Assembly (NCBI GenBank): GCA_017428945.1
Contig: JAFRPW010000024.1
Coordinates: forward strand, 62,001 to 126,000
Length of the DNA: 64,000 bases
Direction: 5' to 3'
Source of the DNA: Bacteroidales bacterium
GTDB taxonomy: Bacteria > Bacteroidota > Bacteroidia > Bacteroidales > UBA932
Shown here: piece by piece, positions 18,481 to 34,770 of the stretch
Layout: every line of letters starts with the position of its first letter
How positions within the stretch are numbered: position 1 is the first letter of the stretch
Position numbers and translations under genes: made by a program
Notes under the pieces: model-generated
Seen by the model: only the letters and a program-made list of their open reading frames with translations
Database searches by the model: none
What the model was told of the DNA's origin: nothing

Positions 18481-19461
18481 ATGAGAAATTTTATACGTAG
18501 AATAATTCTTCAAACAAAGCTTGAGAGCCTATTTGCTAAGGAAGCATGGCATTTTTGGCGTTTCACTAGAAGATATAATGCATCAAACCATACTGATAAG
18601 GATATAGAAAAAATGCAGTATACACTTTCCCGTGAAACACATACAATTGAAAAGGGTATGTCAATGCGAAATCCGAGGAAGGGATTTGGCCAAGAAAAAG
18701 TTTCAAACCTGATTAATAGACTAAAAAAGTATAATCAATTATATGGCATGACGGATTCTTCATTCTTGTACTATCCATTAAGTACAATAAAGTCTTATAT
18801 TGAGTACACTAATAAAACGGGTGTCTCTATACCTGATATTGAAGAATCGTATGCAGAGTTGTTAAATACAACAGATTTTGAGTTAGTTAATGTCGAGTCT
18901 GGTATCGTAAGAGAGAGTAAAGAACATATACAATCATTATGTAACAAGGACTTTGAAAGTTTGCTCTTTAGTAGGCATTCTCTACGTTATTTCAGTAAGA
19001 GGCCCGTGTCGAAAGATATACTTGATAAGGCTCTTATTTTGGCACAACGTACGCCTTCAGCTTGCAACCGACAGGGGTGGAAGGCTCATGTTTTTATGGG
19101 TAATCGAAGTGTTGAATTAATTCGTTGGCAAGGCGGAAGCCGTGGATTTGAAGATGAAATAAGATGTGCAATTCTGGTAACAGCAAATTTAAAGGCCTTT
19201 CTGTCCTTTGAAGTACATCAGGCTTATGTAGATGGCGGTCTTTATGCAATGAATTTAATTAATGCGCTTCACTCACTTGGTCTGGGAACAATTCCTTTAA
19301 GTACTGCCTTTCAATATCAGAAACTTGCAATACTAAAGTCTTTTGGTATTCCGGAAAACGAAGTACCTATACTCATTATTGGAGTTGGTCATTTGCTGGA
19401 TGAGTTTAATGTTGCAGTTTCAACAAGAAAAGATATAGTGTTAACAACCATTTGGCATTAA
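18481..19461 (+). CDS. Nitroreductase-family protein of the polysaccharide locus
   Basis: 326 residues. The C-terminal half (residues about 155-326) has the FMN-binding start SRHSLRYFSKRPV and AQRTPSACNRQGW of the nitroreductase fold, plus YVDGGLYAMNLINALHSLGL. The N-terminal 150 residues are an extension found in capsule-locus members (LSRETHTIEKGMSMRNPRKGF split over residues 50-70). The gene is directly followed by a polysaccharide pyruvyl transferase, a pairing seen in other loci. The redox reaction is unknown. Confidence 0.8.
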   Translation: MRNFIRRIILQTKLESLFAKEAWHFWRFTRRYNASNHTDKDIEKMQYTLSRETHTIEKGMSMRNPRKGFGQEKVSNLINRLKKYNQLYGMTDSSFLYYPLSTIKSYIEYTNKTGVSIPDIEESYAELLNTTDFELVNVESGIVRESKEHIQSLCNKDFESLLFSRHSLRYFSKRPVSKDILDKALILAQRTPSACNRQGWKAHVFMGNRSVELIRWQGGSRGFEDEIRCAILVTANLKAFLSFEVHQAYVDGGLYAMNLINALHSLGLGTIPLSTAFQYQKLAILKSFGIPENEVPILIIGVGHLLDEFNVAVSTRKDIVLTTIWH

Positions 19462-19465
19462 AAAT

Positions 19466-20611
19466 ATGAAGTTTTACTTCCCCGTGCATTTGGATGGTGG
19501 TAATCGCGGTTGTGAGGCTATTGCCAAGTCTACTGCCATTCTTTTGAATCAACCCAAGGAAAACATTATTGGGTTGTGTACTGATATCCCAACAGATAAT
19601 AAACTTGGATTGAATCAGTGTGTTACATTAAGGCATGTTGAGCTCCCTTTATATCAACGTGTCATTAACAGATTATCGCGCTATCTTCATTTAGACTCCC
19701 TACGTCGTAGCATTTATGATTATTTTCTGAAGCCAATGAAGAAAGAAGATATCATGATTTCTACTGGTGGCGATATGATGTGTTATGGTAATAATTTTGT
19801 GATTGAAACCAATGATATAGCAACAAGAAAAGGATGCAAGACGGTCTTGTGGGGTTGTTCTATGGCTGCATCAAATCTAACACCGGAAAAAGAAAAAACA
19901 CTGAGAAAGTTTGATGTGGTTTATGCCAGAGAAAGTTTGACATATGATTTTTTTAAGAGTTTGGGGCTAAATAATGTGATATGCTATCCGGACCCAGCCT
20001 TTTTGTTAAAACCAAAAGAAGTGGCACTGCCCGCCCTAATAAAGAATGGCAATTGTGTTGGTATAAATATTTCAAACTATACAGTTGGCGCTTTCACTTT
20101 AGACACTCCTTTTGGTCAGGAGGTAAAGCAACTGCTAGATTATATCATTCATAAAACAACAAAGAGTATTATACTTATTCCCCACGTGTTGTGGAATAAA
20201 CAAGATGATAGACTTGTAATGAAAGCTGTTTTGGATGATTATAAAGATAATATCGATAGGTTCCTACTATTAGATTCTGAAAATTATAATTATCAGGAGA
20301 TACGTTATATTATATCAAAGTTAGATATTTTTATTGGGGCAAGAACGCACTCAATGATATCTGCATATTCATGTTGTGTTCCTTCTATTGCGTTAGGGTA
20401 TTCGATTAAGTCTAAAGGAATAGCGAAGGACCTTGGCTTATCTGACAAGTTAATTGTTGATACCAAGAATTACAAGTCTGGTGACTTGTTAAACTCCTTT
20501 ATTTATACTCAGGAGCACTGTTCTGATATCAGTCAACATCTTCATACCATCATGCCTCCATATATTGAACAATTAGATAAACTTAAGAAAGAAGTTTCTA
20601 CGTTGCTTTAA
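19466..20611 (+). CDS. Polysaccharide pyruvyl transferase family protein
   Basis: 381 residues. The family (CsaB/WcaK) transfers pyruvate from phosphoenolpyruvate to form a ketal on a sugar. HLDGGNRGCEAIAKSTA near the start, ISTGGDMMCYG, VVYARESLTYDF, PDPAFLL and GARTHSMISAYSC in the C-terminal part match the conserved order of the family. Starts five bases after the nitroreductase stop. Addition of an acidic pyruvate group to the repeat unit is the likely outcome. Confidence 0.87.
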   Translation: MKFYFPVHLDGGNRGCEAIAKSTAILLNQPKENIIGLCTDIPTDNKLGLNQCVTLRHVELPLYQRVINRLSRYLHLDSLRRSIYDYFLKPMKKEDIMISTGGDMMCYGNNFVIETNDIATRKGCKTVLWGCSMAASNLTPEKEKTLRKFDVVYARESLTYDFFKSLGLNNVICYPDPAFLLKPKEVALPALIKNGNCVGINISNYTVGAFTLDTPFGQEVKQLLDYIIHKTTKSIILIPHVLWNKQDDRLVMKAVLDDYKDNIDRFLLLDSENYNYQEIRYIISKLDIFIGARTHSMISAYSCCVPSIALGYSIKSKGIAKDLGLSDKLIVDTKNYKSGDLLNSFIYTQEHCSDISQHLHTIMPPYIEQLDKLKKEVSTLL

Positions 20612-20636
20612 TAACAGGTAAACATTGAATTATTAA

Positions 20637-21950
20637 ATGGCGTCGACATTATTATATACGAGAGGGCGAAGTGTAAGCATCTGGGAAAAGATGCTATTGT
20701 GGTATTTTCCTTTGTGCTTAATGTATGTGCTTTTGGGGATGCGAGGAATTGATACACATTTAATCTTACCATTACAGGCTTTTATCTTTGTATATGGCAT
20801 CCTTGCTTTTTTAGGTAAGGAAGGACAGAAGGATTATAAAATTCTTGTTGCCTTCTTTATGTTTTATTCCCTTTTTTCTATTTGTTGGGTTGAAAGCCAA
20901 TTGTTGGATGGCTTCATAAATGATGCTCGAGTTGTCGTTTTACCCATGTTCGCTATTTTTATAGGCATGAGTAATAATAGCGATAAGTTGTATAAGGTAT
21001 TTATATATGTTGTGGTCATTTCAATGATAATCGGCCTTTTTTTATATTTCGTTCAGCCAGCTTGGTTTATTGAAAGAATGGTGGAAAAGTGGAATGAGGC
21101 CTGGTACTCTGAAGGAGGCGCTACTGAGGATAATATATTGTCAGGGCGGTATGCATGGGCCTCTAGATTTAGTGCCATCTATGGAACTCCATATGGTGTT
21201 TCCTATTTTGGGACTTTTGCATTATGTCTTTTGACCATAGATATATATAAGAAAGAAGAGAATAGATTGATTAATAAAAGGTGGTTGCAATTGTTTTTTT
21301 TTGTTATCCTTGCCGTTTCTGTGGTATTGGGCCAGAATAGAGTTGCTATGGTTTATTTAGTCTTATTGGCTCTTTGGGGATTGTTTTATGGAATACGGTA
21401 TAAGCGTCCCGAAAGAAAGATATTCCTAAAATTAATGTTTGGACTATTATTGATAGGTTTTGTAGTGCTAATAAGATTTGGTGACAATGATTTTGTTACC
21501 ATGATTAAAGACACGCTAATTGAGAGATTTGAGGATACGCATGAAAATGGTCTTCATAATACTGCGAGAGATAACCAGATCAGCGTAACGCTTAATTCAT
21601 GGAACAATTACATAGTTGGAGAAGGTCTTGGCAGCAGAGGTGGTGTTGTTAGAAGTCATGGGCATCCTGGCGTTACAGACAATGGATATGTTAAACTAAT
21701 AGTTGAGCAGGGAGTGTTTGGCTTTATACTATTGTTATTTCTTTTCATACGATCAATGCTAAAAGCATTTAAGAATAGAAAAGTTTTGTATGCTGAGTTT
21801 TTTATATTGGGATATGTCCTATTTGCTATGATTGGAGCAAACCCTTTAGGAATGGAGTATGATTATATGATTATTATGTGGTTCGCAATGGGACATATTT
21901 GGAACAAGCAGTATATAGAAACATGTAGAATAATGGGAAATCATATTTGA
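20637..21950 (+). CDS. wzy: O-antigen/capsule repeat-unit polymerase (Wzy-like)
   Basis: 437 residues with about 10-12 membrane helices and a large periplasmic loop holding GLGSRGGV and HGHPGVTDNGYVKLIVEQG, the pattern of O-antigen ligase/polymerase proteins near their last helices. Its place between pyruvyl transferase and glycosyltransferases fits a Wzy polymerase. The start is an ATG at 20637, 25 bp after the previous stop. Wzy proteins diverge greatly, so the call is from topology and context. Confidence 0.8.
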   Translation: MASTLLYTRGRSVSIWEKMLLWYFPLCLMYVLLGMRGIDTHLILPLQAFIFVYGILAFLGKEGQKDYKILVAFFMFYSLFSICWVESQLLDGFINDARVVVLPMFAIFIGMSNNSDKLYKVFIYVVVISMIIGLFLYFVQPAWFIERMVEKWNEAWYSEGGATEDNILSGRYAWASRFSAIYGTPYGVSYFGTFALCLLTIDIYKKEENRLINKRWLQLFFFVILAVSVVLGQNRVAMVYLVLLALWGLFYGIRYKRPERKIFLKLMFGLLLIGFVVLIRFGDNDFVTMIKDTLIERFEDTHENGLHNTARDNQISVTLNSWNNYIVGEGLGSRGGVVRSHGHPGVTDNGYVKLIVEQGVFGFILLLFLFIRSMLKAFKNRKVLYAEFFILGYVLFAMIGANPLGMEYDYMIIMWFAMGHIWNKQYIETCRIMGNHI

Positions 21951-21951
21951 A

Positions 21952-23058
21952 ATGAAAAAACCAGAAATAATAGCTTTTTATCTTCCTCAATTCCATCCAT
22001 TCAAAGAAAACGACGAATGGTGGGGGAAGGGCTTTACAGAGTGGACTAATGTGGGAAAGGCAAAACCTTTGTTTAAGGGTCACAACCAGCCTCGTGTTCC
22101 TACAGAATTGGGATACTATGACTTGCGTCTTCCAATTATTCGTGAGCAGCAAGCAGAAATGGCACGTGACGCTGGCGTAACCGCTTTCTGCTATTGGCAT
22201 TATTGGTTTGGTAATGGCAAACGCTTGATACCTGAAGTATTTAACGAAGTGCTTGAAAGCGGTAAACCTGATTTCCCTTTCTGTTTGGGTTGGGCCAACC
22301 ATAGTTGGTTTGCCAAAAATTGGAATAGTGATGGGACTACTACTGAGAGGATGCTTATGGAGCAGACATATCCTGGTATTGAGGATGAGAAGATGCATTT
22401 TTCATTTCTATTGAAAGCCTTTAATGATCCGAGATATGTCAAGATTGACGGAGCGCCGCTTCTGTATATTTTCGCCCCACGCGACCTGCTACAGGAATAT
22501 GTAGAGAACTTCCGTAAATGGACTAAGGAAGCAGGTTTCCCGGATATTTATTTAGTAGCCAACTTAACCGATGCTAGGCTGCCAAAGGAAGATTTTTTGA
22601 AAATGGGCTATAACGCAGTCTCTTATCAGCGGTTAGGTGCAAAAATGATTACGGGTACGGATGCTAAAGCGAAAGCTAAACGAGCTTTTGTACGTTGGGG
22701 ATTAAAGATAAAAGGCTTCATAAAACATAGACCACCCTTTATGCATGACTATAAGACATTATATCATGAGTTATTGGCAAAAGAGGATTATGAAGAAGAA
22801 GTAATCCCAGCGATTGTACCCCAGTGGGATCATACCCCTCGTTCTGGTTGGAATGGTACATTGTTCGTTAATGCCACTCCAGAGTATTTTTACCAGCATG
22901 CAAAGGAGGTCTTAAGTGCCGTTAAAGGAAAGAAGCATCCAATTGTTTTCTTGAAATCGTGGAACGAATGGGGTGAAGGAAATATGATGGAACCAGACAT
23001 AACATATGGACGTGGGTTTATTGATGCTTTACGAAAAGTAGTGGATGAGAATGATTAA
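21952..23058 (+). CDS. WbsX-like protein (GH99-like domain)
   Basis: 368 residues. IIAFYLPQFHPFKENDEWWG and GFTEWTNVGKAKPLF followed by CYWHYWF, WANHSW and SWNEWGEGNMMEPD are the signature segments of the WbsX / glycosyltransferase WbsX family with a GH99-like TIM barrel, common in O-antigen and capsule loci. Whether it makes or breaks a glycosidic bond is unsettled. It starts one base after the wzy stop. Confidence 0.87.
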   Translation: MKKPEIIAFYLPQFHPFKENDEWWGKGFTEWTNVGKAKPLFKGHNQPRVPTELGYYDLRLPIIREQQAEMARDAGVTAFCYWHYWFGNGKRLIPEVFNEVLESGKPDFPFCLGWANHSWFAKNWNSDGTTTERMLMEQTYPGIEDEKMHFSFLLKAFNDPRYVKIDGAPLLYIFAPRDLLQEYVENFRKWTKEAGFPDIYLVANLTDARLPKEDFLKMGYNAVSYQRLGAKMITGTDAKAKAKRAFVRWGLKIKGFIKHRPPFMHDYKTLYHELLAKEDYEEEVIPAIVPQWDHTPRSGWNGTLFVNATPEYFYQHAKEVLSAVKGKKHPIVFLKSWNEWGEGNMMEPDITYGRGFIDALRKVVDEND

Positions 23059-23066
23059 TTCGCGGT

Positions 23067-24188
23067 ATGTCTAACAAACCAGTTTTAGTTTATTATAGCC
23101 TAGATTGTTTTATTCAGGTCGATGATACTGTACTGAGTCATTTAGCAAATGACTTTAAGGTAGTGTGGTTTTATTTATATGAATCCATGCAAGCTAATAC
23201 CATGCGGTATAATCCCGAAAAGGCACAAGAGTATGCTGATAAATACGGCATAACCATGGAGATTGTAGATCCAAAGATGCGTCGTCGTAATCCGAAGAAC
23301 ATCCTGTTCTATAAAAATCTGGCAAAACGCATAAACAGTTACAATCCTGATATTGTCTATGCCTGTGAGATGTTTCCTTTCTGGATGCTAACATACCGGT
23401 ACGTTAAGTGTAAGAACAAGGTATATGGCATCCACGATGTATTACCTCATTATGAGAAAGCCAGTATTATCAAGAAGTGGATACTCAAAAAGAAGGAGCA
23501 GTATATAAAACAGAAGTTCGACCACATTGTGACATTCTCAAAGAATCAGCAAGCCCTGCTGAAAGAGCATTTCGGTAAGGATTCAGATATGGTTGGAATG
23601 AGTTATAAGTACTTTGGGGATTCTAAACTTTCACCGTCTCCTTTTGAGAATGGTGTAAAGATTCTTTTCTTCGGTATTATCAGCCACTATAAAGGACTTG
23701 ACTTGCTTATACAGGCAATGGAAGAACTGAAATTAGATGGCGTGAATAACTTACAACTCACAATTGCCGGCAGGGGCGAATCCTGGTCTGAGTGTCTACC
23801 ATTGATAAAGACCCCGGAACTATATAACCTACAGGTGCGTTTTATTGAGAATGCTGAAATTCCCGACCTTATGGGCTCACATCACTTTATAGTACTTCCT
23901 TACCGGAGTGCTACACAATCCGGACCTCTGGTGGCAGCATTAGGCTATGGAATTCCTGTGGTTGCGCCAAGTTTCGGTTGTTTTACAGATACGGTAAACA
24001 ATGATACTGCAATTCTATACGAACAAGGAAGTTTGAAGGATGCCCTTCAAAAGGTTTCACGGATGACTAGATTTGAATATGAAAAGATGAGGGAGGCAAT
24101 GGCTGTGCTTCGTGAACAGTACTCGGAGAAAAACATTGCAGCAAACTATATTAAAGCTTTCAAAAAAGTTTTGAACAAGAAGAATTAA
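23067..24188 (+). CDS. Glycosyltransferase family 4 protein
   Basis: 373 residues. The C-terminal half has the GT-B pattern: KILFFGIISHYKGLDLLIQA (donor domain start), LTIAGRGE, and VLPYRSATQSGPLVAALGYG with the region before PVVAPSFG where GT4 enzymes bind the nucleotide sugar. The sugar and acceptor cannot be told. Nine bases separate it from the WbsX-like gene. Confidence 0.85.
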   Translation: MSNKPVLVYYSLDCFIQVDDTVLSHLANDFKVVWFYLYESMQANTMRYNPEKAQEYADKYGITMEIVDPKMRRRNPKNILFYKNLAKRINSYNPDIVYACEMFPFWMLTYRYVKCKNKVYGIHDVLPHYEKASIIKKWILKKKEQYIKQKFDHIVTFSKNQQALLKEHFGKDSDMVGMSYKYFGDSKLSPSPFENGVKILFFGIISHYKGLDLLIQAMEELKLDGVNNLQLTIAGRGESWSECLPLIKTPELYNLQVRFIENAEIPDLMGSHHFIVLPYRSATQSGPLVAALGYGIPVVAPSFGCFTDTVNNDTAILYEQGSLKDALQKVSRMTRFEYEKMREAMAVLREQYSEKNIAANYIKAFKKVLNKKN

Positions 24189-24198: not shown

Positions 24199-25401
24199 AT
24201 GAAGGAATCCATAAATAATCCAGTAGTTATACTTGGCGGGAATATCAACGGGCTAGGTATTGTAAGAAGTTTCCAGAAGACCAAGATTCCTGTTTATGTA
24301 CTTATTCAAGATAGGGATATTACCAGATGGAGTCGTTTCTGCAAAACAGTACATTGTCCCGACCCTAAAACGGATTCGTTCGCTCCTTTTTTATATGAGT
24401 TTTGTAAAGGTTTTGAAGTGAAGCCGGTTTTGTTTGCCACAGCCGACATTTTTTTAATGCCGCTTATTCATCATAAAAAACAATTAGAAGAAGTAGCATA
24501 TATTCCCACTTGTGAACCAGAACTATTTGACAAACTTATCGAGAAGAAATATCTATATGCATTTGCAGAAAGTGTCGGAGTATCATGCCCGAAAACTAAG
24601 AATCTGCAGGCTGAAGAGCTTGATGATAAAGTCGTTGATGGAATGCTCTATCCTCTTATTATTAAGCCGTCGGTAAATATTACTTTTCAAAAGACTTTTG
24701 GGCAGAAAGCCTTACTTGTTAAAGATGATAAAGAGTTGGCTGGTTTTATAGAAGAAGTAAAAAAACATAGCTATGCCAGCCCCATAATAATCCAAGAGTA
24801 TATACCTGGCGATATGACAACGCTTCACACTATTACTAGCTATGTTGATAAGAAGCATGAGATCAGAGGTTATTCTATTGGACATAAGATCCGGCAATAC
24901 CCCGCAAAGACGGGCACTATCACTGCCGGATTGGTCGACCATGTGGAATCTATATTGGAGATGTCAAAACGGTTTGTCAAGGAAGTGGGCTTTTATGGCA
25001 TTTCTAATATAGAATATAAATATGATTCACGGGATGGACAGTATAAATTAATGGAAATCAATCCACGTACAGGCCTTTGGAATTTATCGGTCTTAGAAAG
25101 CGGCATTAATCTTCCTCTGATGGCATACAGAGATATATTGGGTCAAACAATTCAAGATGAAAGCAACAAAGAAGGAAAGCTGATTTGGGCTTATACTATA
25201 TTTGATTTACTTGTGTCGTTAAACGGATATAAAAGCAGTGGGGAACCAGAAGAGACTCTATCATATTCTCAATGGAGAAAGAGCCTTAAAAACTATAAGA
25301 AGGTTGATGCAATTTTTAAGTGGAACGACCCCATTCCTTTCATAGTTGATTCATCGAATTTAATTGTTGCAAGCATTAAGAGAGTGCTAAAAAAGAAATA
25401 A
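24199..25401 (+). CDS. ATP-grasp ligase (carboxylate-amine type)
   Basis: 400 residues. An N-terminal pre-ATP-grasp part (VVILGGNINGLGIVRSFQK) precedes an ATP-grasp fold: LIIKPSVN, IIQEYIPGDMTTLH and the Mg-binding MEINPRTGLWNLSV. The family forms amide or similar bonds between a carboxylate, activated as acyl phosphate, and an amine. It precedes two opine dehydrogenases and a B12-dependent mutase, so a likely job is to join a modified amino acid to another group, perhaps the amino sugar. The substrate is inference; the fold is clear. Confidence 0.85.
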   Translation: MKESINNPVVILGGNINGLGIVRSFQKTKIPVYVLIQDRDITRWSRFCKTVHCPDPKTDSFAPFLYEFCKGFEVKPVLFATADIFLMPLIHHKKQLEEVAYIPTCEPELFDKLIEKKYLYAFAESVGVSCPKTKNLQAEELDDKVVDGMLYPLIIKPSVNITFQKTFGQKALLVKDDKELAGFIEEVKKHSYASPIIIQEYIPGDMTTLHTITSYVDKKHEIRGYSIGHKIRQYPAKTGTITAGLVDHVESILEMSKRFVKEVGFYGISNIEYKYDSRDGQYKLMEINPRTGLWNLSVLESGINLPLMAYRDILGQTIQDESNKEGKLIWAYTIFDLLVSLNGYKSSGEPEETLSYSQWRKSLKNYKKVDAIFKWNDPIPFIVDSSNLIVASIKRVLKKK

Positions 25402-25438
25402 ACTGGGTATAACCTTAAGATATTCATTTGGTGTTTGA

Positions 25439-26506
25439 ATGAGAGTTTCGGTATTAGGAACAGGAAACGGCGGACAAGCCATCGCAGGCTGGCTTACTAC
25501 GCAAGGGCATTCAGTCAGTCTTTACGGTAGAAATGAAAGCATTGTTGAATTTCTAAATTCTCGCAAGAGTATAGAACTTACGGGTGCTATTAATGGTGTT
25601 GGTGTTCTAGCTGAGGTTACTGGCAACATTCATCGTTCGGTATCTGGTGCTGATGTAATAATGATTGTCACCACAGCAAATGCTCATGGTGCTATAGCCC
25701 GTCAAATAGCCGGTGATTTAAGTGATGGCCAAGTTATTATTTTGAACCCTGGTCGTACAGGTGGTGCACTGGAGTTCAAACGCGCACTTGAAGCTGCGGG
25801 TTGCAATGCACGAGTATATGTGGCAGAAGCACAAACGCTGGTTTATGCCTGCCGTCTAGTAGAGAATGGCTTGGTAAATATCATTGGAGTCAAGGATAAG
25901 GTTCTTCTTTCTGCAGTCCCTTCATCTGACACAGAATATGTACTTTCCAAGATAACTCCCGCATATCCCTGCTTCTGTGCTGCTGAAAACGTGCTGCGAA
26001 CATCGCTGGAAAACATTGGAGCCATGTTCCATCCCTGTGTGCTGCTTTTCAATGCCGCCACAATTGAACGTCACGATGTATTCTGGTTCTACAGGGACAT
26101 GACCCCGGAGATAGCCAACTTCATTGAAGAGTTTGACAAAGAGCGTTTGGCCGTTGGGAAGGCGTACGGTATAGATCTTCTTAGCGTAAACGAATGGATT
26201 AGTTACGCCTATCCTGCTACACAAGGAACAACACTCTGTGAAAAGATGAAAAACAATCCTGCCTATCACGATATTAAGTCACCCTCAACTATCTTCACCC
26301 GTCAGCTGACGGAGGATATTCCAACAGGTGTGCTTCCAATTATGGAACTTGGAGAGGCTGCCGGTGTTGAGGTCCATCTTCTTCGTTCTATGGTGGATAT
26401 CTGCAGCCGCCTGTTGAGGATTGATTTCAGAAAAGACGGACGTACCTTAGAGCATCTGGGATTGGCTGGAAAGACTAAAGATGAGATATTGACTTATCTC
26501 TCATAA
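25439..26506 (+). CDS. NAD/NADP octopine/nopaline dehydrogenase family protein, copy 1
   Basis: 355 residues. The Rossmann start VLGTGNGGQAIAGWL and the C-terminal opine dehydrogenase domain (FDKERLAVGKAYGIDLLSV, RQLTEDIPTGVLPIMELG) are clear. The family reductively joins an amino acid amine to a 2-keto acid with NAD(P)H. The gene next to it is a close paralogue that shares most of the sequence (roughly two thirds identical by eye). Both cover the full family length, so both are probably active, perhaps on different partners. Confidence 0.85.
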   Translation: MRVSVLGTGNGGQAIAGWLTTQGHSVSLYGRNESIVEFLNSRKSIELTGAINGVGVLAEVTGNIHRSVSGADVIMIVTTANAHGAIARQIAGDLSDGQVIILNPGRTGGALEFKRALEAAGCNARVYVAEAQTLVYACRLVENGLVNIIGVKDKVLLSAVPSSDTEYVLSKITPAYPCFCAAENVLRTSLENIGAMFHPCVLLFNAATIERHDVFWFYRDMTPEIANFIEEFDKERLAVGKAYGIDLLSVNEWISYAYPATQGTTLCEKMKNNPAYHDIKSPSTIFTRQLTEDIPTGVLPIMELGEAAGVEVHLLRSMVDICSRLLRIDFRKDGRTLEHLGLAGKTKDEILTYLS

Positions 26507-26525
26507 TAGTTAATGGAATAGTAAT

Positions 26526-27596
26526 ATGAAATACGCGGTATTAGGTGCTGGCAATGGTGGGCAAGCTTTATCTGGATGGCTTGCCATGCACGGTCATGAG
26601 GTATGGCTTTACGAAATTGTTGAAGAAAAGGTCGAGGCGTTAGCAAAAAAGAAAGAGATTTACCTTCAAGGTGCTATACAAGGTGTTGGCAAATTGGCTA
26701 GTGTTTCCAATGAAATAAAATCTACGGTAGAGGGTGCAGATATTATCATGGTGGTTACTACAGCAAATGCCCATGCTGCCGTGGCCCGTTCACTAGCAGG
26801 TATTCTAACGGACGACCAGGTGATTATACTTAACCCTGGGCGCACGGGTGGCGCACTTGAGTTCAAACGCATGCTGAATGCAAGTGGCTGCAAAGCACGC
26901 GTATATGTAGCAGAAGCACAGACCTTAGTTTATGCCGCCCGTTTGATAGAAGAAGGAACGGTAAACATTATTGGTGTGAAGGATAAGGTGCTGTTGGCAG
27001 CCGTTCCCGCTACGGATACGGCGTATGTGCTGGAAAAGATTATTCCCGATTTCCCGATGTTCTGTCCTGCAAAGAATGTATTGCGTACCTCATTGGAGAA
27101 TATAGGAGCCATGTTCCATCCCTGTGTGCTACTCTTCAATGCGGCCACGGTGGAGCGTAACTCCGTGTTCTGGTTCTATAGGGACATGACTCCTAAGATT
27201 GCAGACTTCATAGAGAAGTTTGACAAGGAGCGTCTGGCAGTTGGTAAGGCATACGGTATTGACCTGCTCAGCGTGAGCGAGTGGATTAGTTATGCCTATC
27301 CGGGAACGCCTGGAGACACTCTCTGTGAGAAGATGAAAAACAATCCTGCATATCATGATATTAAGTCACCCTCTACTATATTTACCCGCCAGTTGACGGA
27401 AGACATCCCTACAGGTGTTTTACCTATCATGGAATTGGGTGAGGTGGCAGGAGTGCCTGTACCATTAATGCGCTCCATGGTAGAGATATGTGGTAACTTG
27501 TTAGATATAGATTTTCGTGAGAAAGGCCGCACATTAGAGCATCTTGGCCTTGCCGGAAAGACAAAAGATGAAATCATAGAGTACTTGTCGCGATGA
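26526..27596 (+). CDS. NAD/NADP octopine/nopaline dehydrogenase family protein, copy 2
   Basis: 356 residues, tandem paralogue of the gene before it, with GAGNGGQALSGWLAMHG at the nucleotide-binding start and the same C-terminal domain (FDKERLAVGKAYGIDLLSV, RQLTEDIPTGVLPIMELG). The N-terminal NAD(P) domain has diverged more than the C-terminal domain, which fits two enzymes acting on related substrates. The stop overlaps the start of the mutase gene (ATGA), so the two are translationally coupled and probably act in one pathway. Confidence 0.85.
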   Translation: MKYAVLGAGNGGQALSGWLAMHGHEVWLYEIVEEKVEALAKKKEIYLQGAIQGVGKLASVSNEIKSTVEGADIIMVVTTANAHAAVARSLAGILTDDQVIILNPGRTGGALEFKRMLNASGCKARVYVAEAQTLVYAARLIEEGTVNIIGVKDKVLLAAVPATDTAYVLEKIIPDFPMFCPAKNVLRTSLENIGAMFHPCVLLFNAATVERNSVFWFYRDMTPKIADFIEKFDKERLAVGKAYGIDLLSVSEWISYAYPGTPGDTLCEKMKNNPAYHDIKSPSTIFTRQLTEDIPTGVLPIMELGEVAGVPVPLMRSMVEICGNLLDIDFREKGRTLEHLGLAGKTKDEIIEYLSR

Positions 27597-29458
27597 AAGA
27601 AAAAGTGAAGAGCACCGATGTATTCGGATTCATTAAACCTTTGGTAGATGTTCACACCATGGGTGTGTTCACCATAGCTAACCTCTTGATGGATTGCGGA
27701 TACAAGGTTTACGTATCAAACGATGATGTGAACGAAGCAGTACAGGATCTTCGCAAACTAAATAATTATGGTCTTTTAAAACGTTGGCTGTTAGATAAAC
27801 ATATTAATCGTCTGGGTTTCAGCTACAGACTTGACCCCGTTGAGGGATGTGACTACTTTATGTCTCTTTATGAGCATCTTGAAAATGACAAGATGTTTGC
27901 CAAGGATGGCGGCCCGCTTACACAGATTTTCTTTGCTGGTTTGCCGGATACTTGTGATAGGGTAAAAGGAAAGACCAAAGGTTCTGTATTGGTGTTCCCA
28001 GGCAACGAGACTCCGATTGAATCTCTTCGTATGCTCAAAGTACCGGAAGAGAGTCTTCCCGGAACGCTGATTGAAGACAATGCCTACGATAATATGCGTT
28101 GGGCGTTTGCAAAAGAGCTTATTGAGAGTGGCCGCTGGCAACTGGAGTCATATCAAGACCATTACGGCTATCCCTCCTGCGGTACTAAGAAAGACAAGTT
28201 TGTTGATAGGTTGAATTATGCAAGGGAGAAACATTCGCTTCCTATCATCCGTACGCACTCTGGCCCATACAATCCCAATCGTTTGGAGGCTCTGAAAGAA
28301 TATAATTCCTGGATTAAGGATTTGGCACAATCTAAATTACTTGACGTGCTGTCCATAGGTAGTTCTCAACTTACACAATCTCATTTTGGTGAAGATTGGA
28401 AAGACCTCCCAAACGGAGGTGGCGTACCGGTAAACTCTGAGATTGAATACAGTATCATACGGGAAAACGCTTCACCGATGCTTGTCCGTACCTATTCTGG
28501 AACAAAGAACCTTCCTGATCTTGCAAGGATACACGAGAGGGCTCTGAATATCTCTTGGCACGCTCTGTCATTCTGGTGGTTTGATGAACTTGACGGACGA
28601 GGCAACAATACCTTGTTGGAAAATCTTAAAGAGCATTTTGAGGTAGTACGATATGCTATTGCCACAGACAAGCCTGTGGAGCCTAACGTGCCTCATCATT
28701 TTGCTTTCCGAGGGGCTGACGACATTACCTATATCATCTCTGGCTATCTTGCTGCGAAAGCTTGCAAGAAGCTTGGGTTGAGGCACATGGTTCTTCAGAA
28801 TATGCTTAATACGCCTAAATATACTTGGGGAGCAGAGGACTTGGCAAAAGGACGAACAATGATAAAGTTAGTGCGTTCTCTTGAGGATGCCAACTTCAAG
28901 GTGAGTCTCCAGAGTCGTGCGGGTCTGGATTATTTTGCTCCAGATTTGGAATACGCCAAGATTCAGCTAGCCGCAGTGACTTGTATGATGGATGACATTG
29001 ATCCGGGTAATGACAATAGCCCTGAGATTATTCATGTGGTGAATTATTCTGAGGCAGTCCGGCTGGCCACTCCGCCTGTTATTAAGGACAGTATTAAGAT
29101 CACACTTTCTGCACTTCATGAGTACCGTCTTGCCCGCAAGCTGGGCAAGATACCCGATATGCGCTATGATCCTGATGTAAAAGAGCGTGCTGATTCTCTT
29201 TATGAAGAATGTGTGGAATCTATCAAGTTGTTGGAGAAAGCCATTCCTAACCTGTACTCGCCCGAAGGCTTCTATAAGGTATTTGTTGAGGGTTTCCTTC
29301 CTGTTCCTTATCTAATGGATCAGCATAGAAAGTTCCCCAAGGCCAGACAATACAGAACGGCCATCAAGAATGGCGGTATTCGTGTGGTGGATGAGGAGGG
29401 AAATATCATTTACACCCCTGACCGTTATAGGAAGATTATTGACCAAATGGAGAAATAG
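27593..29458 (+). CDS. Single-chain cobalamin-dependent mutase, methylaspartate (glutamate) mutase-like
   Basis: 621 residues. The N-terminus has D19-V-H21-T-M-G24, the DxHxxG motif whose histidine binds cobalt in base-off corrinoid mutases, in the context PLVDVHTMGVFTIANLLMDC of a Rossmann-like B12 domain (about residues 1-200). The rest (about 200-621) resembles the catalytic TIM-barrel subunit GlmE of glutamate mutase: PIIRTHSGPYNPNRLEAL, ARIHERALNISWHALSFWWF, VLQNMLNTPKYTWG, SLQSRAGLDYF. Clostridial glutamate mutase has separate S and E chains; here they are fused. The next gene is the adenosyltransferase that makes its cofactor. The substrate is probably an amino acid or derivative, rearranged on its carbon skeleton. 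A whole polysaccharide-locus pathway around it is inference. Confidence 0.75.
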   Translation: MKEKVKSTDVFGFIKPLVDVHTMGVFTIANLLMDCGYKVYVSNDDVNEAVQDLRKLNNYGLLKRWLLDKHINRLGFSYRLDPVEGCDYFMSLYEHLENDKMFAKDGGPLTQIFFAGLPDTCDRVKGKTKGSVLVFPGNETPIESLRMLKVPEESLPGTLIEDNAYDNMRWAFAKELIESGRWQLESYQDHYGYPSCGTKKDKFVDRLNYAREKHSLPIIRTHSGPYNPNRLEALKEYNSWIKDLAQSKLLDVLSIGSSQLTQSHFGEDWKDLPNGGGVPVNSEIEYSIIRENASPMLVRTYSGTKNLPDLARIHERALNISWHALSFWWFDELDGRGNNTLLENLKEHFEVVRYAIATDKPVEPNVPHHFAFRGADDITYIISGYLAAKACKKLGLRHMVLQNMLNTPKYTWGAEDLAKGRTMIKLVRSLEDANFKVSLQSRAGLDYFAPDLEYAKIQLAAVTCMMDDIDPGNDNSPEIIHVVNYSEAVRLATPPVIKDSIKITLSALHEYRLARKLGKIPDMRYDPDVKERADSLYEECVESIKLLEKAIPNLYSPEGFYKVFVEGFLPVPYLMDQHRKFPKARQYRTAIKNGGIRVVDEEGNIIYTPDRYRKIIDQMEK

Positions 29459-29460
29459 AT

Positions 29461-29955
29461 ATGTCCATTACAACTAAAAGAGGAGATGAGGGTATGACCT
29501 CACTCATTGGCGGACAGCGAGTATTAAAATGTGATGACAGGGTAGAGGCGTACGGAACAGTAGACGAATTGTCTGCATTCATAGGTATTCTTCACGATAC
29601 CATTCAGGACACGGAAGATAATACGAAGGCTTTCCTGATGGACATTCAAAAGAACTTGCTAACGGTTGAAGCGATATTCGCTAGCCCGGAGGAGGGTAAG
29701 ATTCCTCATTTAGATCCGTCTGCTATTGTTGCAGTGGCTGATAGAATTGCTGCGTTAGAGAATGAGTTGCCTCCTTTCAGGTCTTTTATAATGCCTGGTG
29801 GGAATCTTGCCGCTTCCTATGCTCATGTATGCAGAACAATTTGCCGCAGAGCTGAACGCCGGGCAGTTAAGATTGTGGCAAAGGGAGTAGAACTACAATA
29901 CCTTAACAGGTTGTCAGACTACTTCTTCATTCTAGCGAGAAAGCTATCAGTTTAA
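29461..29955 (+). CDS. Cob(I)alamin adenosyltransferase, PduO type
   Basis: 164 residues. Starts SITTKRGDEGMTSLIGGQRV, the ATP-binding N-terminus of PduO-type ATR, followed by VEAYGTVDELSAFIG and, near the C-terminus, CRTICRRAERRAV and YLNRLSDYFFILAR. It transfers the 5'-deoxyadenosyl group from ATP to cob(I)alamin and delivers adenosylcobalamin. It starts two bases after the mutase stop, which strongly supports the mutase being adenosylcobalamin-dependent. The 3' end overlaps the convergent permease gene by four bases. Confidence 0.93.
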   Translation: MSITTKRGDEGMTSLIGGQRVLKCDDRVEAYGTVDELSAFIGILHDTIQDTEDNTKAFLMDIQKNLLTVEAIFASPEEGKIPHLDPSAIVAVADRIAALENELPPFRSFIMPGGNLAASYAHVCRTICRRAERRAVKIVAKGVELQYLNRLSDYFFILARKLSV

Positions 29956-30749
29956 GCCTCCTTGCCTTTGATGAATATCAACGCCATTAGAGGCAATGCG
30001 ATAATTGCCATCGTTGCGCTAATGGGCAAATAGATGCCAAAATTGACATACTGAACAACCAGATAGGTGACAAGCAGAAGCCCGATTCCCATAGTACTGG
30101 AAATAAGGTAATGCTTTCTAATGTCGGTATTCTTGCAGATAAGCCTGCTAAGATTTGGTACGCCAAGAGATATAAATCCAATAGGGCCACATATACTGAC
30201 GGCACTTGTAACAAGGCACATTATTGCAAGAAGAAGCAGTGCCTTGCCAAGGTTTGCGATTTCTATCTCACCCTTAAAATGGCGTGTTAATGTCTTGGCT
30301 TGTGTTAATGCAGCCAAAAGCCCTACGGAAAAAAGAACAAGAGAAAAGATAATATCACCCGACGTAACACCCTCAAGGCGGAAGTTGGCAGCACCCCAAA
30401 GATAGTATTGTTTCAGAAGGTCTCCAGTTGGTGCATTGGTAACGACAATAGTTCCTAACGAACCGATGAAGGTACCGAAAAGAATGCCAAAGGTAATAAG
30501 CTGCTGGGTATTCACTTTTAAGGTGACAAAGAAACAAACAAGTGTGCAAATAAGCGTGCAGATGAAACTGCCAACGGTCAGTGAACACCAGCCACTCATG
30601 GTTGCGGCAGCAGCCCCCAGGCAGGCGGCACTGCCCAGCCCAAGGCTGTAAACATCACCCAACTGGTTACGCCATAAGTACTGCATTTGAATACCACCTA
30701 CAGGCAGAGCAATGCCGGAAAGGACAACGTAAAGGAGACTTAAAAACAT
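29952..30749 (-). CDS. btuC: FecCD/BtuC-type ABC permease, short form
   Basis: 265 residues with about seven or eight membrane helices. LSGIALPVGGIQMQYLWRNQ matches the second-helix signature of the FecCD/BtuC family (usually GxxLALSGxxxQ...RNPLA), and CGPIGFISLGVPNLSRLI near the C-terminus matches the conserved GxIxFVGLxxPHxxR loop. Family members usually have about 330 residues; this one begins just before helix 2, so the first helix seems lacking. The ATG at 30749 follows the btuB-like stop by four bases. Cobalamin as substrate is inferred from the operon and riboswitch. No ATPase (BtuD) or periplasmic binding protein (BtuF) gene is adjacent. Confidence 0.72.
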   Translation of the reverse strand: MFLSLLYVVLSGIALPVGGIQMQYLWRNQLGDVYSLGLGSAACLGAAAATMSGWCSLTVGSFICTLICTLVCFFVTLKVNTQQLITFGILFGTFIGSLGTIVVTNAPTGDLLKQYYLWGAANFRLEGVTSGDIIFSLVLFSVGLLAALTQAKTLTRHFKGEIEIANLGKALLLLAIMCLVTSAVSICGPIGFISLGVPNLSRLICKNTDIRKHYLISSTMGIGLLLVTYLVVQYVNFGIYLPISATMAIIALPLMALIFIKGKEA

Positions 30750-30753
30750 AGTA

Positions 30754-32709
30754 TCAAAACTTATAATCAACAGTTAATAGGGCATTGAATCCGGGCATGG
30801 GGTAGCCTTGTACAATTTGGTAGTGCGTATTGAAGATATTGTTGAGATTTAAACCAACAGACAAGGACGGTAAGACAGAACAGGTTATTATGGCATCACT
30901 GATTGACCAAGGTTCTATGTAATAATCCGGGATGTTGGCTGTCCGTGACCATTTGCCACTTGTTAGCGTAGTGTCCCAGATGAATGAAAACTTACGCCAT
31001 TGAGCTTGAAATGCAAGGCTTCCGCTATGAAGCGGAATGTAAGGAATCTGATTCCCATAGGTTTGGCTTTCAGGGTCGCTATGATCAAGGGCTTGTTGAA
31101 AAGAATAACGGAAAGTAGCGCTGAGGTTGAGCTCGTTGATGTGATATAAAAAAGATGCTTTGGCATCAAGACCGGTTACATCTACCGTTCCGATGTTGAG
31201 CATTGTCCAACGAAATTGTGATGAAGTAGGGATGGCGACAATCTTATCAGTAACGCGATTATAATATGGCGATAATCTTAGTTCTGCTTGCCATACTTTG
31301 CTGTTGAAGCTGAAACGAAAATCAGATCCGAACTGAAAGGCTAACTCCGGTGCAAGGGATGAATTGCCCATTTGACTGTAGTATAAATCATTAAAAGAAG
31401 GGAGACGGTAACTGCGTTTAACATAGGCATCAACCTCAACCCACTTGAACGGATTCCAAAAGAGACTGACAGAAGGCATCCAAGCGTCACGATAACGGTT
31501 GTCACGGCTCCAGCCACCTGCGTTGGGTGTGTCAAAAGTATCCCAAGCCCCCATATATACCAGATGGGCTGCTGCACGGAACTTCTCCCATGCAATTCTG
31601 GAAGACAAAGCTCCGGTAAAGGATGTGCGATGGGGCGTTACAAATTGCCCTACATCTGAAACAAGAGTGTTGTACTGAACATCAGTACTGAGGTCAACCG
31701 ACCAAGGACTTGCAATAATGTACGAATGGGCGAGAGAAGCGTAACCTGACTGTTGCCTGTAATGCAAGTCATAAGGCATTGCCATAGGATTCTTCTCCGG
31801 ATGTGTATTATAGTGTGTGTAATTGTTGGAGTATTTGAAGCGAAGGGCTGTAGAGTATTGTTTTGACCAGTCTTGGGTCCACGAACCTTGAACGAAGATA
31901 TCCTGGTCAGCTTGGCGTTCCGCACTGAAAGGAAAACCCATCGCACGACGGATGACAGGGCCAGGGAAACCACGTTCAGAACCGTAAGAGTAGGCTCTTA
32001 CTTGCCAGTCGCTATCCTTGAGATGCCCAAACAGTTGGGCTTCCAGACGCAGGCTTTTGATGTCTCCGTTCTCGCGAACCAGAGTGGTATCAATACAAGG
32101 ATATTTGTACTTGCCGTTGCTAGTAAGGAACTCGCCCGATGTGCGGAGTGTAATAGAAGAAGATAGGTCTTTGTCCCATCTAATGGATGGGTTAATGGTC
32201 ACAAAAGAACCTGCACGTAGTTTTAGCATCACTTCGCTGCCGTTTAATGGTCTGGGACGTTCAGTGTTTAGGTGGACAGCGGCCCCTGAGGCATACTCCT
32301 TCGCCGTTTGCAGGCGATGCGTTTTCTGACCATTGAAAAGAGAGACAGTTTCAATGCCATCCGTTGAGAAACGGCCCAGATCAACCTGCATGTTTTGCGC
32401 ATTGTCAATCTGGATACCGTCCAGGAAGATACCAACGTGTTCACTGCCCAGACTGCGGACATTGATGGTTTTCAGGCCACCAACACCGCCGTAGTCTTTG
32501 ACTTGGACGCCTGTAAAGTTGCGGAGAACATCAGCAACTTGAGTTGGAACGGTCACTTGGGAGGAAAGCCGGACGCTTTCTGACGGACGAACCACAGGAA
32601 GAGTTATGATTGAAGAGATTTGAGCAGCCTTAAGCGTATCCGCCTCCTGTGCAAAGATACACAAAGGGGCGGATACGATAAGAAAAAAAGTCAAACGCCA
32701 GCGCAACAT
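30754..32709 (-). CDS. btuB: TonB-dependent receptor, BtuB-like cobalamin transporter
   Basis: 651 residues from the ATG at 32709, which overlaps the upstream stop (TAATG). A signal peptide (MLRWRLTFFLIVSAPLCIFA) precedes a plug domain with VADVLRNFTGVQVKDYGGVG and VNVRSLGSEHVGIFLDG-like segments, then a beta-barrel ending in an aromatic (VDYKF), as outer-membrane barrels do. It lies in an operon with a BtuG-like lipoprotein and a permease behind a cobalamin riboswitch, so cobalamin or another corrinoid is the likely cargo. Confidence 0.88.
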   Translation of the reverse strand: MLRWRLTFFLIVSAPLCIFAQEADTLKAAQISSIITLPVVRPSESVRLSSQVTVPTQVADVLRNFTGVQVKDYGGVGGLKTINVRSLGSEHVGIFLDGIQIDNAQNMQVDLGRFSTDGIETVSLFNGQKTHRLQTAKEYASGAAVHLNTERPRPLNGSEVMLKLRAGSFVTINPSIRWDKDLSSSITLRTSGEFLTSNGKYKYPCIDTTLVRENGDIKSLRLEAQLFGHLKDSDWQVRAYSYGSERGFPGPVIRRAMGFPFSAERQADQDIFVQGSWTQDWSKQYSTALRFKYSNNYTHYNTHPEKNPMAMPYDLHYRQQSGYASLAHSYIIASPWSVDLSTDVQYNTLVSDVGQFVTPHRTSFTGALSSRIAWEKFRAAAHLVYMGAWDTFDTPNAGGWSRDNRYRDAWMPSVSLFWNPFKWVEVDAYVKRSYRLPSFNDLYYSQMGNSSLAPELAFQFGSDFRFSFNSKVWQAELRLSPYYNRVTDKIVAIPTSSQFRWTMLNIGTVDVTGLDAKASFLYHINELNLSATFRYSFQQALDHSDPESQTYGNQIPYIPLHSGSLAFQAQWRKFSFIWDTTLTSGKWSRTANIPDYYIEPWSISDAIITCSVLPSLSVGLNLNNIFNTHYQIVQGYPMPGFNALLTVDYKF

Positions 32710-33875
32710 TACCAAATGGCAAAGTGGCCCGGACAAACGCCAGCTGTTACCGTCCAGACTTTACTGCCATTGTTGTAAAGGCTTACGGAACCGGGATTGA
32801 AATAGTCACCGGCATCACCAATGAGGAAAGTAGAGCTGCTGACAGCACAGAGACTGTAAAGAGAAGTGGCGGAAACAGAAAGATTCATATCAGTCTTTGT
32901 TCCGTTCTTGCAAGACCAGGCCTTCCAGGTTTTGGCGGCCGTCCAGTCAAACTCTTCCTCTGCACCAATGCAGTAAATAGTACCATTGTTAATGGATGAG
33001 ACGCTAACATAGTCAGCGATATGTTTCACAGCATCAGAGGTATTGATCATATAAAGACCGGAATGAATGCTCCAATAGTTGCCAAGGGTGGTTACATAGA
33101 TGTTGCCCGTACCGTCAGCATAGACGTTTTTCAGGTTGACCTGAACTTCAACGTTCTTTGTTACTTTGAAAGTCTTGGTATTTATGATAGAAACAGTGTT
33201 GTCGTATGAATAGTTGGGAGGGAGCTGACTGGAAATGCCACCGGAGTTGGCAACATAGAGTTTGCCGTTGTAACAGGCCAGACCCTCCGGCTGGTATCCG
33301 ACTTCAACTGAACCTTCCACTTTTTTGGTGCTGAGATTGATACGATAAACTTGGCCTTTGGGATTCTTGGAATCTGTGATGGTATAGTTTCCGTTGGCAT
33401 CGTAAGAGCCGTTTGCGTAAGCTCCAGCCCAGGAAGAAACATAAGCATAGGTGTCATCAAAAGCAATACTACGGGGCGTGGCCACCTGAATAGCAGCAAT
33501 TTCGGTCTCATCCTTTGCAGAGATGACCTCCACGATACCCGAGTTGTTGATGACCATCCAAACCTCATCACCGTGAACGGCAATGTCGTTACCCACGTCA
33601 CCAAGACCGGCACCGGCATCAGGGTTCATCTTCTTGAAGACGCCTGTGACGTAATTGCCGTCACTGATGCGAAGGAAATCAAGGCTGGCGTTGTTGGAGC
33701 CCATACCGCCTTCGTTGAGCATGAAGATTTTTTTGACATTAGCAGAAATGCTTGAAACATCGACCTTCTCGCCGGTCAGATCAGCGTCCTTGTAAACCTC
33801 AGGAATGGGATCCTTCTGGCACGCGAAAGCAGATAATAGCGCACCACAAAGCAAAAGCAAACGTGCTTTTTTCAT
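32709..33875 (-). CDS. btuG: BtuG-like surface lipoprotein with beta-propeller (DUF5074/YncE type)
   Basis: 388 residues. Lipoprotein signal MKKARLLLLCGALLSAFACQ with the lipobox cysteine at about residue 19. The rest is a seven-bladed-propeller type sequence: IFMLNEGGMGSNNASLDFL, VGNDIAVHGDEVWMVIN, TPRSIAFDDTYAYVSSW, YQPEGLACYNGKLYVANSGG, DGTGNIYVTTLG. This matches the BtuG family of Bacteroides, which binds cobalamin very tightly on the cell surface and hands it to BtuB. First gene after the riboswitch; its last bases overlap the btuB start. Confidence 0.87.
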   Translation of the reverse strand: MKKARLLLLCGALLSAFACQKDPIPEVYKDADLTGEKVDVSSISANVKKIFMLNEGGMGSNNASLDFLRISDGNYVTGVFKKMNPDAGAGLGDVGNDIAVHGDEVWMVINNSGIVEVISAKDETEIAAIQVATPRSIAFDDTYAYVSSWAGAYANGSYDANGNYTITDSKNPKGQVYRINLSTKKVEGSVEVGYQPEGLACYNGKLYVANSGGISSQLPPNYSYDNTVSIINTKTFKVTKNVEVQVNLKNVYADGTGNIYVTTLGNYWSIHSGLYMINTSDAVKHIADYVSVSSINNGTIYCIGAEEEFDWTAAKTWKAWSCKNGTKTDMNLSVSATSLYSLCAVSSSTFLIGDAGDYFNPGSVSLYNNGSKVWTVTAGVCPGHFAIW

Positions 33876-33924
33876 GATAGATAAAGATTTAACGTTACCG
33901 CAAGGACTTGTCCCCGAGCCCCGA

Positions 33925-34115
33925 TGCTAAACTTGACAATGGCAGGTCTTCTGACTTCTCCCAGCGCTTGCGCCTTCTCGAAGGAACAAGTCCTTCAATG
34001 GCTAAAGAATGCTGCGCTGATAAGGATGACACAGCTGCGGGCACAGTCCCGGAATCACACCGGCTTCCCTTTTGAGCTTGCCGGAGAGACCTCCGGACGA
34101 AGCACCATAGTCCGC
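33925..34115 (-). promoter_or_regulatory. Cobalamin riboswitch
   Basis: On the minus strand the conserved B12 box is present in full: AAGCCGGTGTGATTCC then GGGACTGTGCCCGC and AGCTGT (about 34068-34032), followed at a distance by the second conserved part GTCAGAAGACCTGCC (about 33955-33937) before the btuG start. These match the adenosylcobalamin riboswitch consensus in order and spacing. It begins just after the predicted transcription start and ends about 50 nt before the btuG ATG, so it would shut off translation or transcription of the uptake operon when cobalamin is plentiful. Confidence 0.93.
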
Positions 34116-34117
34116 TA

Positions 34118-34149
34118 CAAATTTAGTTAAAATAGACATTTTGACAAAG
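34118..34149 (-). promoter_or_regulatory. Promoter of the cobalamin uptake operon
   Basis: CTTTG at 34145-34149 and TAAATTTG at 34118-34125 on the minus strand, exactly 19 bp apart, match the Bacteroidota -33 and -7 elements. The start point expected near 34110 coincides with the 5' edge of the riboswitch. Confidence 0.75.
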
Positions 34150-34210
34150 AAAGGCGAGGAAAAGCGACAAAAAGTGGCTAAATTAGCCTAATTATTCAAA
34201 AATTGACAAT

Positions 34211-34762
34211 ATGGCTGTACGATTTGTTGAAGGACCTATAACTGACTTTGTAAAGACTTGTGTTGATGTTCCCAGATTCTTGGCTTGTTGCAGAGAATGT
34301 CCCAATTATAATAAAAGGTGGTCCTGTCCCCCCTATGATTTCTCTGTGGAGAGCGTTTGGAACCAGTACGCGGATATCTTATTGTATGAAGAGAAGATTA
34401 TCATGAAGCCCGAATTACGGGAGAAGTATTACAGTCAGGAAGAAATCAATGAACGGAGTCGAGCGTTGCTTGCACCAGCTAAAAGACAAATGACTGATAC
34501 TCTCCTAACGATGGAGAAAGATTATCCAGGAAGCAGGGCTCTCTTTGCTGGTACGTGTGAGATATGCGAACAATGTGATAAGGAGAAGGGTATATCATGT
34601 CGACATCCTGATTTAATGAGGTATTCAATAGAGGCACTTGGTGGTAATGTGGCAAAGGCGGTACAGATATATTTTGATGATACAATTCTCTGGGCTGAGA
34701 ATGGACACTTGCCGGAGTATTTTATACTTTTAGGTGGACTTATGAAGTCTAAAGTGAAATAG
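34211..34762 (+). CDS. DUF2284 cysteine-rich metal-binding protein
   Basis: 183 residues. N-terminal CRECPNYNKRWSCPPY and C-terminal CEICEQCDKEKGISCRHP carry the cysteine clusters of the DUF2284 family, thought to bind a metal or iron-sulphur cluster. Its biochemical role is unknown. It is divergent from the cobalamin operon and starts about 60 bp from that operon's promoter; members of the family often lie near corrinoid genes, so a part in cobalamin handling is possible. It is followed 8 bp later by polysaccharide genes. Confidence 0.8.
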   Translation: MAVRFVEGPITDFVKTCVDVPRFLACCRECPNYNKRWSCPPYDFSVESVWNQYADILLYEEKIIMKPELREKYYSQEEINERSRALLAPAKRQMTDTLLTMEKDYPGSRALFAGTCEICEQCDKEKGISCRHPDLMRYSIEALGGNVAKAVQIYFDDTILWAENGHLPEYFILLGGLMKSKVK

Positions 34763-34770
34763 ACAATACT

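Follow-up and report, generated by a model that had tools for sequence, protein, structure and literature searches.

The stretch of DNA analysed here, referred to as the window, comprises 64,000 nucleotides of contig JAFRPW010000024.1 (positions 62,001 to 126,000) in the Bacteroidales assembly GCA_017428945.1, and the subject of this report is a run of five plus-strand genes within it. These genes, which an initial annotation made from the sequence had proposed and which the list of open reading frames (ORFs) reproduces, encode an ATP-grasp protein (24199..25401, 400 residues), two opine dehydrogenases (25439..26506 and 26526..27596, 355 and 356 residues), a 621-residue candidate member of a family of single-chain adenosylcobalamin (AdoCbl)-type mutases (27593..29458), and a PduO-type cob(I)alamin adenosyltransferase (29461..29955, 164 residues). 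The ATP-grasp, dehydrogenase and PduO assignments are borne out by Pfam and NCBIfam models above their cut-offs, with PF15632 at 33.9 bits (cut-off 29.1) and PF02786 at 28.6 bits (19.8) for the first, Octopine_DH PF02317 at 137 and 134.6 bits (30) for the two dehydrogenases, and PF01923 at 176.1 bits (24) together with TIGR00636 at 154.1 (108.45) for PduO. The ATGA coupling described between the second dehydrogenase and the putative mutase was read directly as an overlap at 27593, and the DxHxxG motif is present as DVHTMG (residues 19-24; 27647..27664, plus strand), taken here to be the putative lower-ligand histidine motif. The polysaccharide setting also proved correct by Pfam: on the plus strand, 17112..24188 holds genes for a flippase, a nitroreductase-like protein, a pyruvyl transferase, an O-antigen-ligase/Wzy-type protein, a WbsX protein and a glycosyltransferase, and 34771..53225 holds a GINT1_N/GH43-type gene, glycosyltransferases, dTDP-sugar genes, epimerases, an acyltransferase, a sugar-phosphate transferase and others, two of them lacking a Pfam family.

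AdoCbl-dependent mutases are few and well catalogued, and in the scans made, neither Pfam nor NCBIfam offered a dedicated model for the family of the 621-residue protein. A search of genome contigs with a three-row alignment gave 275 pattern matches and 215 relatives, the best 80 of which were kept as loci L011-L090; by their record titles, 37 are from Bacteroidota and 43 from other phyla (Bacillota, Spirochaetota, Armatimonadota, Thermotogota, Acidobacteriota and more), the family being spread over eight phylum labels. Culturable carriers include Bacteroides pyogenes DSM 19673 (L024) and Heminiphilus faecis AM35. Across 59 aligned rows, H21 and G24 of DVHTMG never vary and D19 is kept in at least 90%, and 36 of these 59 relatives match the B12-binding domain PF02310 at E<=0.1 (best 1.8e-5). 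In a quick tree, a starred branch separates the window and 22 Bacteroidota rows from the other rows. When 22 and then 249 genomes were searched with the GlmE model PF06368, weak matches also came up on ORFs of about 550 residues; 20 such places were fetched, and 12 hold a protein matching the mutase profile at E<=3.4e-70, 11 of these 12 adjoining a dehydrogenase, while the other eight places hold neither. Together with L003 and L005-L007, which were found by mutase sequence or profile, come from the window's order or phylum and group with them in the quick tree, these 12 make up a distant subfamily of 16 members. All six distant members scanned match PF02310 N-terminally (three above the cut-off), and four of the six also match PF06368 in a later part of their sequence (E 1.1e-5 to 2.9e-4, under the cut-off). 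The B12-type motif pattern fits 71 of 75 members, the HxxG-to-YRL spacing being 52 residues in 54 of them and 41, presumably the classical value, in 15. From the family alignment, the predicted layout is an N-terminal B12-binding domain at about residues 14-122 and a GlmE-type barrel at about 202-608.

The comparison of profiles by hhalign points in the same direction, since 75 family members align with 34 GlmE proteins at a probability of 94.1% (E 1.2e-7, 347 columns) and five unrelated families used as controls reach 0.1-0.7%. For MCM (4.2%) and ornithine aminomutase (0.5%), the alignment is confined to residues 14-127 of the mutase family and, on their side, to the C-terminal parts, presumably their B12 domains. 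An earlier comparison of the 75-row set with GlmE had given 79.8% globally, and a GlmE profile built here matches the family weakly (best E 0.0011 in the 75-sequence set). Because of the PF02310 matches, the PF06368 matches of distant members and the hhalign result with GlmE, the 621-residue protein can be assigned with high confidence to a single-chain, GlmE-type family of putative AdoCbl-dependent mutases. The relationship to GlmE proposed in the initial annotation is thus very probably right on profile and domain evidence; the GlmE-like barrel holds distantly, through the family profile and the sub-threshold Pfam matches of distant members, but not for the window protein alone. Like glutamate mutase (GlmE/MutE, PF06368, acting with GlmS), the family appears to have a GlmE-type barrel and a B12 domain with DxHxxG; unlike it, the family combines both parts, B12 domain first, in a single chain, encoded by one open frame in all 75 aligned members rather than split into separate S and E subunits, has no close identity to it, does not evidently keep the substrate arginines and is partnered by an opine dehydrogenase. 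The lysine 5,6- and ornithine 4,5-aminomutases are likewise B12-dependent, and a weak alignment of the ornithine enzyme covers only the N-terminal domain of the family; the profile probabilities of the two are 0.3% and 0.5%. What are taken to be the substrate arginines of GlmE, R66, R100 and R149, face H222, T261 and R299, at low residue confidence and with a different alignment in the distant subfamily; this mapping onto the active site is ambiguous and is not relied on.

The two dehydrogenases of the window are 77% identical to each other, and the nearest solved relative of both, over the full length, is N-(1-D-carboxylethyl)-L-norvaline dehydrogenase (CENDH, 1bg6; E 4.5e-70 for the first copy and 1.9e-74 for the second). 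H198 and D293, which are taken to be the catalytic His and Asp, are invariant in 18 rows and aligned with 1bg6. The window enzymes thus resemble known opine dehydrogenases in full-length match, Octopine_DH domain and conserved His/Asp positions, and differ from them in being tied to a B12-type mutase. By tblastn (stretches of at least 150 residues), a dehydrogenase is found in 70 of the 80 loci, namely 36 of 37 in Bacteroidota and 34 of 43 elsewhere, the Bacteroidota exception (L052) being a locus that begins inside the mutase gene at the end of its contig. With a simple ORF caller, the dehydrogenase lies directly beside the mutase in 33 of 36 Bacteroidota loci and 29 of 43 others; in two of the non-adjacent Bacteroidota cases genes intervene (L019 and L038), and the third is an artefact of the caller (L040). 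Of the 395 genomes examined in the window's phylum, its own among them, five carry the mutase, and with up to five candidates scored per genome, dehydrogenase matches at E<1e-100 occur in exactly those five, the next best being 2.2e-13 over about 100 residues. Genome G495 has a near-family mutase with no dehydrogenase nearby (L053) and a second, distant mutase with a dehydrogenase of its own (L168). The conserved unit is therefore the opine dehydrogenase with the mutase and not the five genes, and the two very likely form a functional pair. Recurrence of all five genes in other capsule loci, which the initial annotation had suggested looking for, was not observed, given that PduO is present in none of the 80 fetched loci (tblastn) and that two full-length dehydrogenases upstream of the mutase occur only in the window and L011 among the loci compared; L079 and L089, both from Spirochaetota, have two dehydrogenase-like ORFs downstream of it, one full and one short. 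As a separate observation, an opine dehydrogenase that adjoins the mutase in L056 (8319-9986) carries an N-terminal PTS EIIA-2 domain (PF00359, 5.2e-15), and the dehydrogenase of L050 is of similar length, L056 alone having been scanned for families.

In Bacteroidota, the pair has a consistent environment. An ATP-grasp gene is found within four genes upstream of the mutase in 34 of 36 Bacteroidota loci and 3 of 43 others, DegT-looking genes within five genes in 23 of 36 and 3 of 43, and 33 of the 36 have a sugar-type cluster, the labels being assigned in part by eye, in the same five-gene range. One ATP-grasp of the usual Bacteroidota kind, that of L027, has as its best match a chain named phosphoribosylglycinamide synthetase (8.1e-17), followed by L-amino acid ligases (7.5e-11 and 1.9e-7), and narrowly passes PylC-like_N PF21360 (28.1 bits, cut-off 27); for the ATP-grasp of the window, no relative in the PDB was found at E<=0.001. 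Outside Bacteroidota, a Ddl-like ATP-grasp is present in 9 of 43 loci, in the gene run of the mutase in eight (two proteins scanned), and an Asn-synthase-type gene stands in that run in 3 of 43 (one scanned). Other neighbours were also noted: in L072, L078 and L083, the genes after the mutase pair encode a flavin amine-oxidase-like protein and a membrane protein with DUF2298 (families scanned in L072), and tandem T-box leaders (L055:12001-12504, L064:2860-3404 and L067:16536-17102) lie ahead of amino-acid-ABC-transporter-like genes near mutases that have no dehydrogenase.

PduO is local, being part of a block of about 5.3 kb rather than of a conserved set. This block (29493..34770), which is absent from L011, comprises most of PduO and, on the minus strand, a FecCD-type permease of 272 residues (29952..30770), a TonB-dependent receptor (30754..32736), a DUF5074 protein identified by Pfam (32709..33875) and a cobalamin riboswitch (RF00174, 33924..34124, 88.7 bits against a gathering value of 31.5) just upstream of this operon, as well as a divergent plus-strand gene for a DUF2284 metal-binding protein (34211-34762). 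On either side of the block the DNA agrees with that of L011: identity is 89% for the part ending at 29492 and 91% once the match resumes at 34945, inside the gene 34771-35688, which L011 also has; the only repeats found to bound the block are short imperfect pairs. The best NCBIfam model for the receptor is TonB-B12 (1.4e-20, 73.4 bits, cut-off 599.7), and the BtuC and FhuB models match the permease alike and all far under cut-off; a BtuC role of the permease is presumed. A role of the minus-strand operon in B12 uptake is suggested by the riboswitch, by TonB-B12 as the best sub-threshold model and by the DUF5074 protein, which is presumably BtuG-like. No cobalamin riboswitch was found in the 22 of the 80 other loci that were scanned. 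A BtuR-type adenosyltransferase, of a family other than PduO, directly follows the mutase in two Clostridia loci (L071 and L080). In a survey drawn from 101 relatives, in which the genus of unlisted genomes was taken from a genus tally, mutase and PduO are both present in one of 61 genomes of the window's genus, its own, and both missing from the other 60, several of which are incomplete; this coincidence is one case and not a statistic, and it supports B12 dependence. PduO is widespread beyond the genus (36 of 40 genomes), where it is uninformative; it occurs somewhere in 31 of the 35 mutase-bearing Bacteroidota genomes searched (of 37 loci), that of L011 included. The window's lineage otherwise shows little sign of AdoCbl use, and its genome, in which not all other AdoCbl enzymes were searched for, gave neither a PF02310 nor an NrdJ match.

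With regard to origin, the glnS of the contig is 79-95% identical to that of 22 of 24 genus members (two having no good copy) and at most 63% identical to that of 16 other genomes searched, and the contig is therefore native to the genus. The tetranucleotide correlation with the genome is 0.89-0.95 for the contig outside the window and 0.74-0.78 for the window from 17 kb on, so that the locus looks imported. No empty site was seen in G019, the closest genus member by glnS, whose DNA matches run out some 27 kb along the contig and do not reach the locus, and plasmid and phage records gave no match.

Mutase family membership, pairing, setting and cofactor genes are the level at which these data are supported. 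Beyond it, AdoCbl would bind the N-terminal domain of the mutase, and the GlmE-type barrel would carry out a carbon-skeleton rearrangement on a substrate resembling an amino acid. Judging by its relationship to 1bg6 and the conserved His/Asp pair, the dehydrogenase would catalyse an NAD(P)H-dependent reductive condensation of an amino acid with a 2-oxo acid, or act on such an adduct, and the ATP-grasp ligase may form an amide bond between the product and a glycan-precursor component, either a sugar or an amino acid; in the window's lineage, the cofactor would come from the local B12-uptake genes and the PduO behind the mutase. That the product is a surface-glycan substituent in Bacteroidota is fairly probable, whereas the order with the mutase first and the dehydrogenase second is put forward tentatively, the odds being somewhat against it. 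In pyrrolysine biosynthesis, PylB, a radical SAM enzyme, PylC and PylD act as skeleton mutase, ATP-grasp ligase and NAD-dependent dehydrogenase; the likeness is one of logic only, together with the PylC-like_N match of L027, and here the mutase would be of the AdoCbl type and the dehydrogenase is of the opine type, a test for a PylD-type dehydrogenase having failed (TIGR03911, 12.6 bits, cut-off 150.05). A further reading, speculative and rather doubtful, is that the substrate of the mutase is an opine (an N-carboxyalkyl amino acid), or that its product is at once made into one, to serve as a surface-glycan substituent in Bacteroidota; capsule or O-antigen would then depend on environmental B12, a lineage with no other AdoCbl enzymes that acquired the cassette would take B12-uptake and adenosylation genes too, and mutase, ATP-grasp ligase and dehydrogenase would together be a B12 counterpart of the assembly logic of pyrrolysine. 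No pertinent account of such a pathway was found in the open-access literature, judged by titles, and the evidence suggests an apparently undescribed B12-dependent route to an unusual amino-acid building block.

The explanation preferred as a whole, to which slightly better than an even chance is given, is a conserved module of dehydrogenase and AdoCbl mutase, with an ATP-grasp partner in the surface-polysaccharide clusters of Bacteroidota. A number of observations weigh against it. The window's own protein is recognised as a putative mutase through its family and not by itself: it has no Pfam match at E<=0.1, thus neither PF02310 nor PF06368; the single NCBIfam match is unrelated and far under cut-off (0.012); and sequence and 59-row profile searches for a related solved structure gave chance-level matches only. 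A PF02310 search of the window's genome missed the window mutase itself, and such a search can therefore miss divergent domains. Of four near-family members scanned, two match PF02310 weakly and none matches PF06368. Three of the four distant members that match PF06368 came from loci first found with that model, and of the three found by the mutase profile only L006 does so, L003 and L005 giving no match. At the outset, profile comparison with just four GlmE proteins gave a negative result (0.75%); it turned strong only once 16 distant members and 30 further GlmE proteins had been added, and the distant subfamily taken by itself reaches 29.8% in local mode and nothing in global mode. Nine of the 43 non-Bacteroidota loci (L053-L055, L057, L063, L064, L067, L074 and L084) have no dehydrogenase in the fetched stretch (tblastn), and sugar-type clusters lie within five genes of the mutase in only 6 of 43; the pair being common outside polysaccharide loci, its job is broader than glycan decoration. 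The initial annotation had named a wide occurrence of the five genes outside polysaccharide loci as an argument against its own reading, and while the set itself is not conserved, the core pair does occur in this way. The window's ATP-grasp has the usual Bacteroidota position but belongs to a different sequence cluster (window, L011 and L016), and no DegT-type family is present in the Pfam-scanned locus, so that an amino-sugar acceptor is not evident. An adenosyltransferase next to the mutase is rare (2 of 80 loci), and PduO was unmatched in 4 of the 35 mutase-bearing Bacteroidota genomes and in G092.

Part of this evidence would also fit a free small molecule, such as an opine-type metallophore, an osmolyte or a peptide-like compound, with the polysaccharide setting in Bacteroidota a mere location of the cassette. 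The dehydrogenase-mutase pair does occur without sugar genes in many Bacillota, and the Ddl-like (9 of 43) and Asn-synthase-type (3 of 43) genes of non-Bacteroidota loci agree with such a product, whereas the consistency of the Bacteroidota setting (sugar-type clusters in 33 and ATP-grasp in 34 of 36) does not; this alternative is unlikely, though it retains appreciable weight. Less probable again is a catabolic module of amino-acid fermenters borrowed by Bacteroidota, in which the mutase would start a breakdown and the dehydrogenase oxidise the product. Several carriers are, by record titles, Clostridia and relatives, presumably amino-acid fermenters, and T-box-led amino-acid-ABC-transporter-like genes come after the mutase in L055 and L064, but that transporter is preceded by leaders of its own, the mutase genes concerned have no dehydrogenase nearby, and the other recurrent partners of the family are ligases, pointing to synthesis. 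It is improbable that the protein is an ordinary glutamate mutase in one chain that makes 3-methylaspartate for catabolism or for the glycan. The GlmE-type barrel seen by profile and the weak, below-cut-off matches of distant members to the methylaspartate mutase S (GlmS) model speak for it; however, a separate true GlmE of about 485 residues is present in 4 of 22 mutase-bearing genomes searched, so both coexist, the regular partner is an opine dehydrogenase, and no arginine stands opposite R66 (H222) or R100 (T261). The 3-methylaspartate unit offered as an example in the initial annotation is likewise unsupported, two of the three presumed substrate arginines being so aligned, again at low residue confidence and with a second alignment that differs. 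If the 621-residue protein no longer bound B12 and were no mutase, with PduO and the uptake genes next to it by coincidence, its lack of a B12-binding domain match would be accounted for, but H21 and G24 are invariant in the 59 rows, PduO here and BtuR-type enzymes in L071 and L080 represent different families beside the same gene, and mutase and PduO coincide in the genus, albeit in a single case; this explanation is very improbable.

The preferred explanation, a dehydrogenase-mutase module serving surface polysaccharides in Bacteroidota, matters in two respects. An unmodelled mutase family that is found under eight phylum labels and keeps company with an opine dehydrogenase is a sign of metabolism not yet known. 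B12 is a contested resource in the gut, where surface polysaccharide governs phage and immune recognition, and the explanation, if true, would link B12 to surface-polysaccharide structure in gut Bacteroidota. Apart from these genes, 7319-15732 of the window encodes, consecutively, a KAP-family NTPase, a 1388-residue AAA/STAND-like protein and a TIR protein. These three genes, next to the polysaccharide locus, may constitute a defence island.

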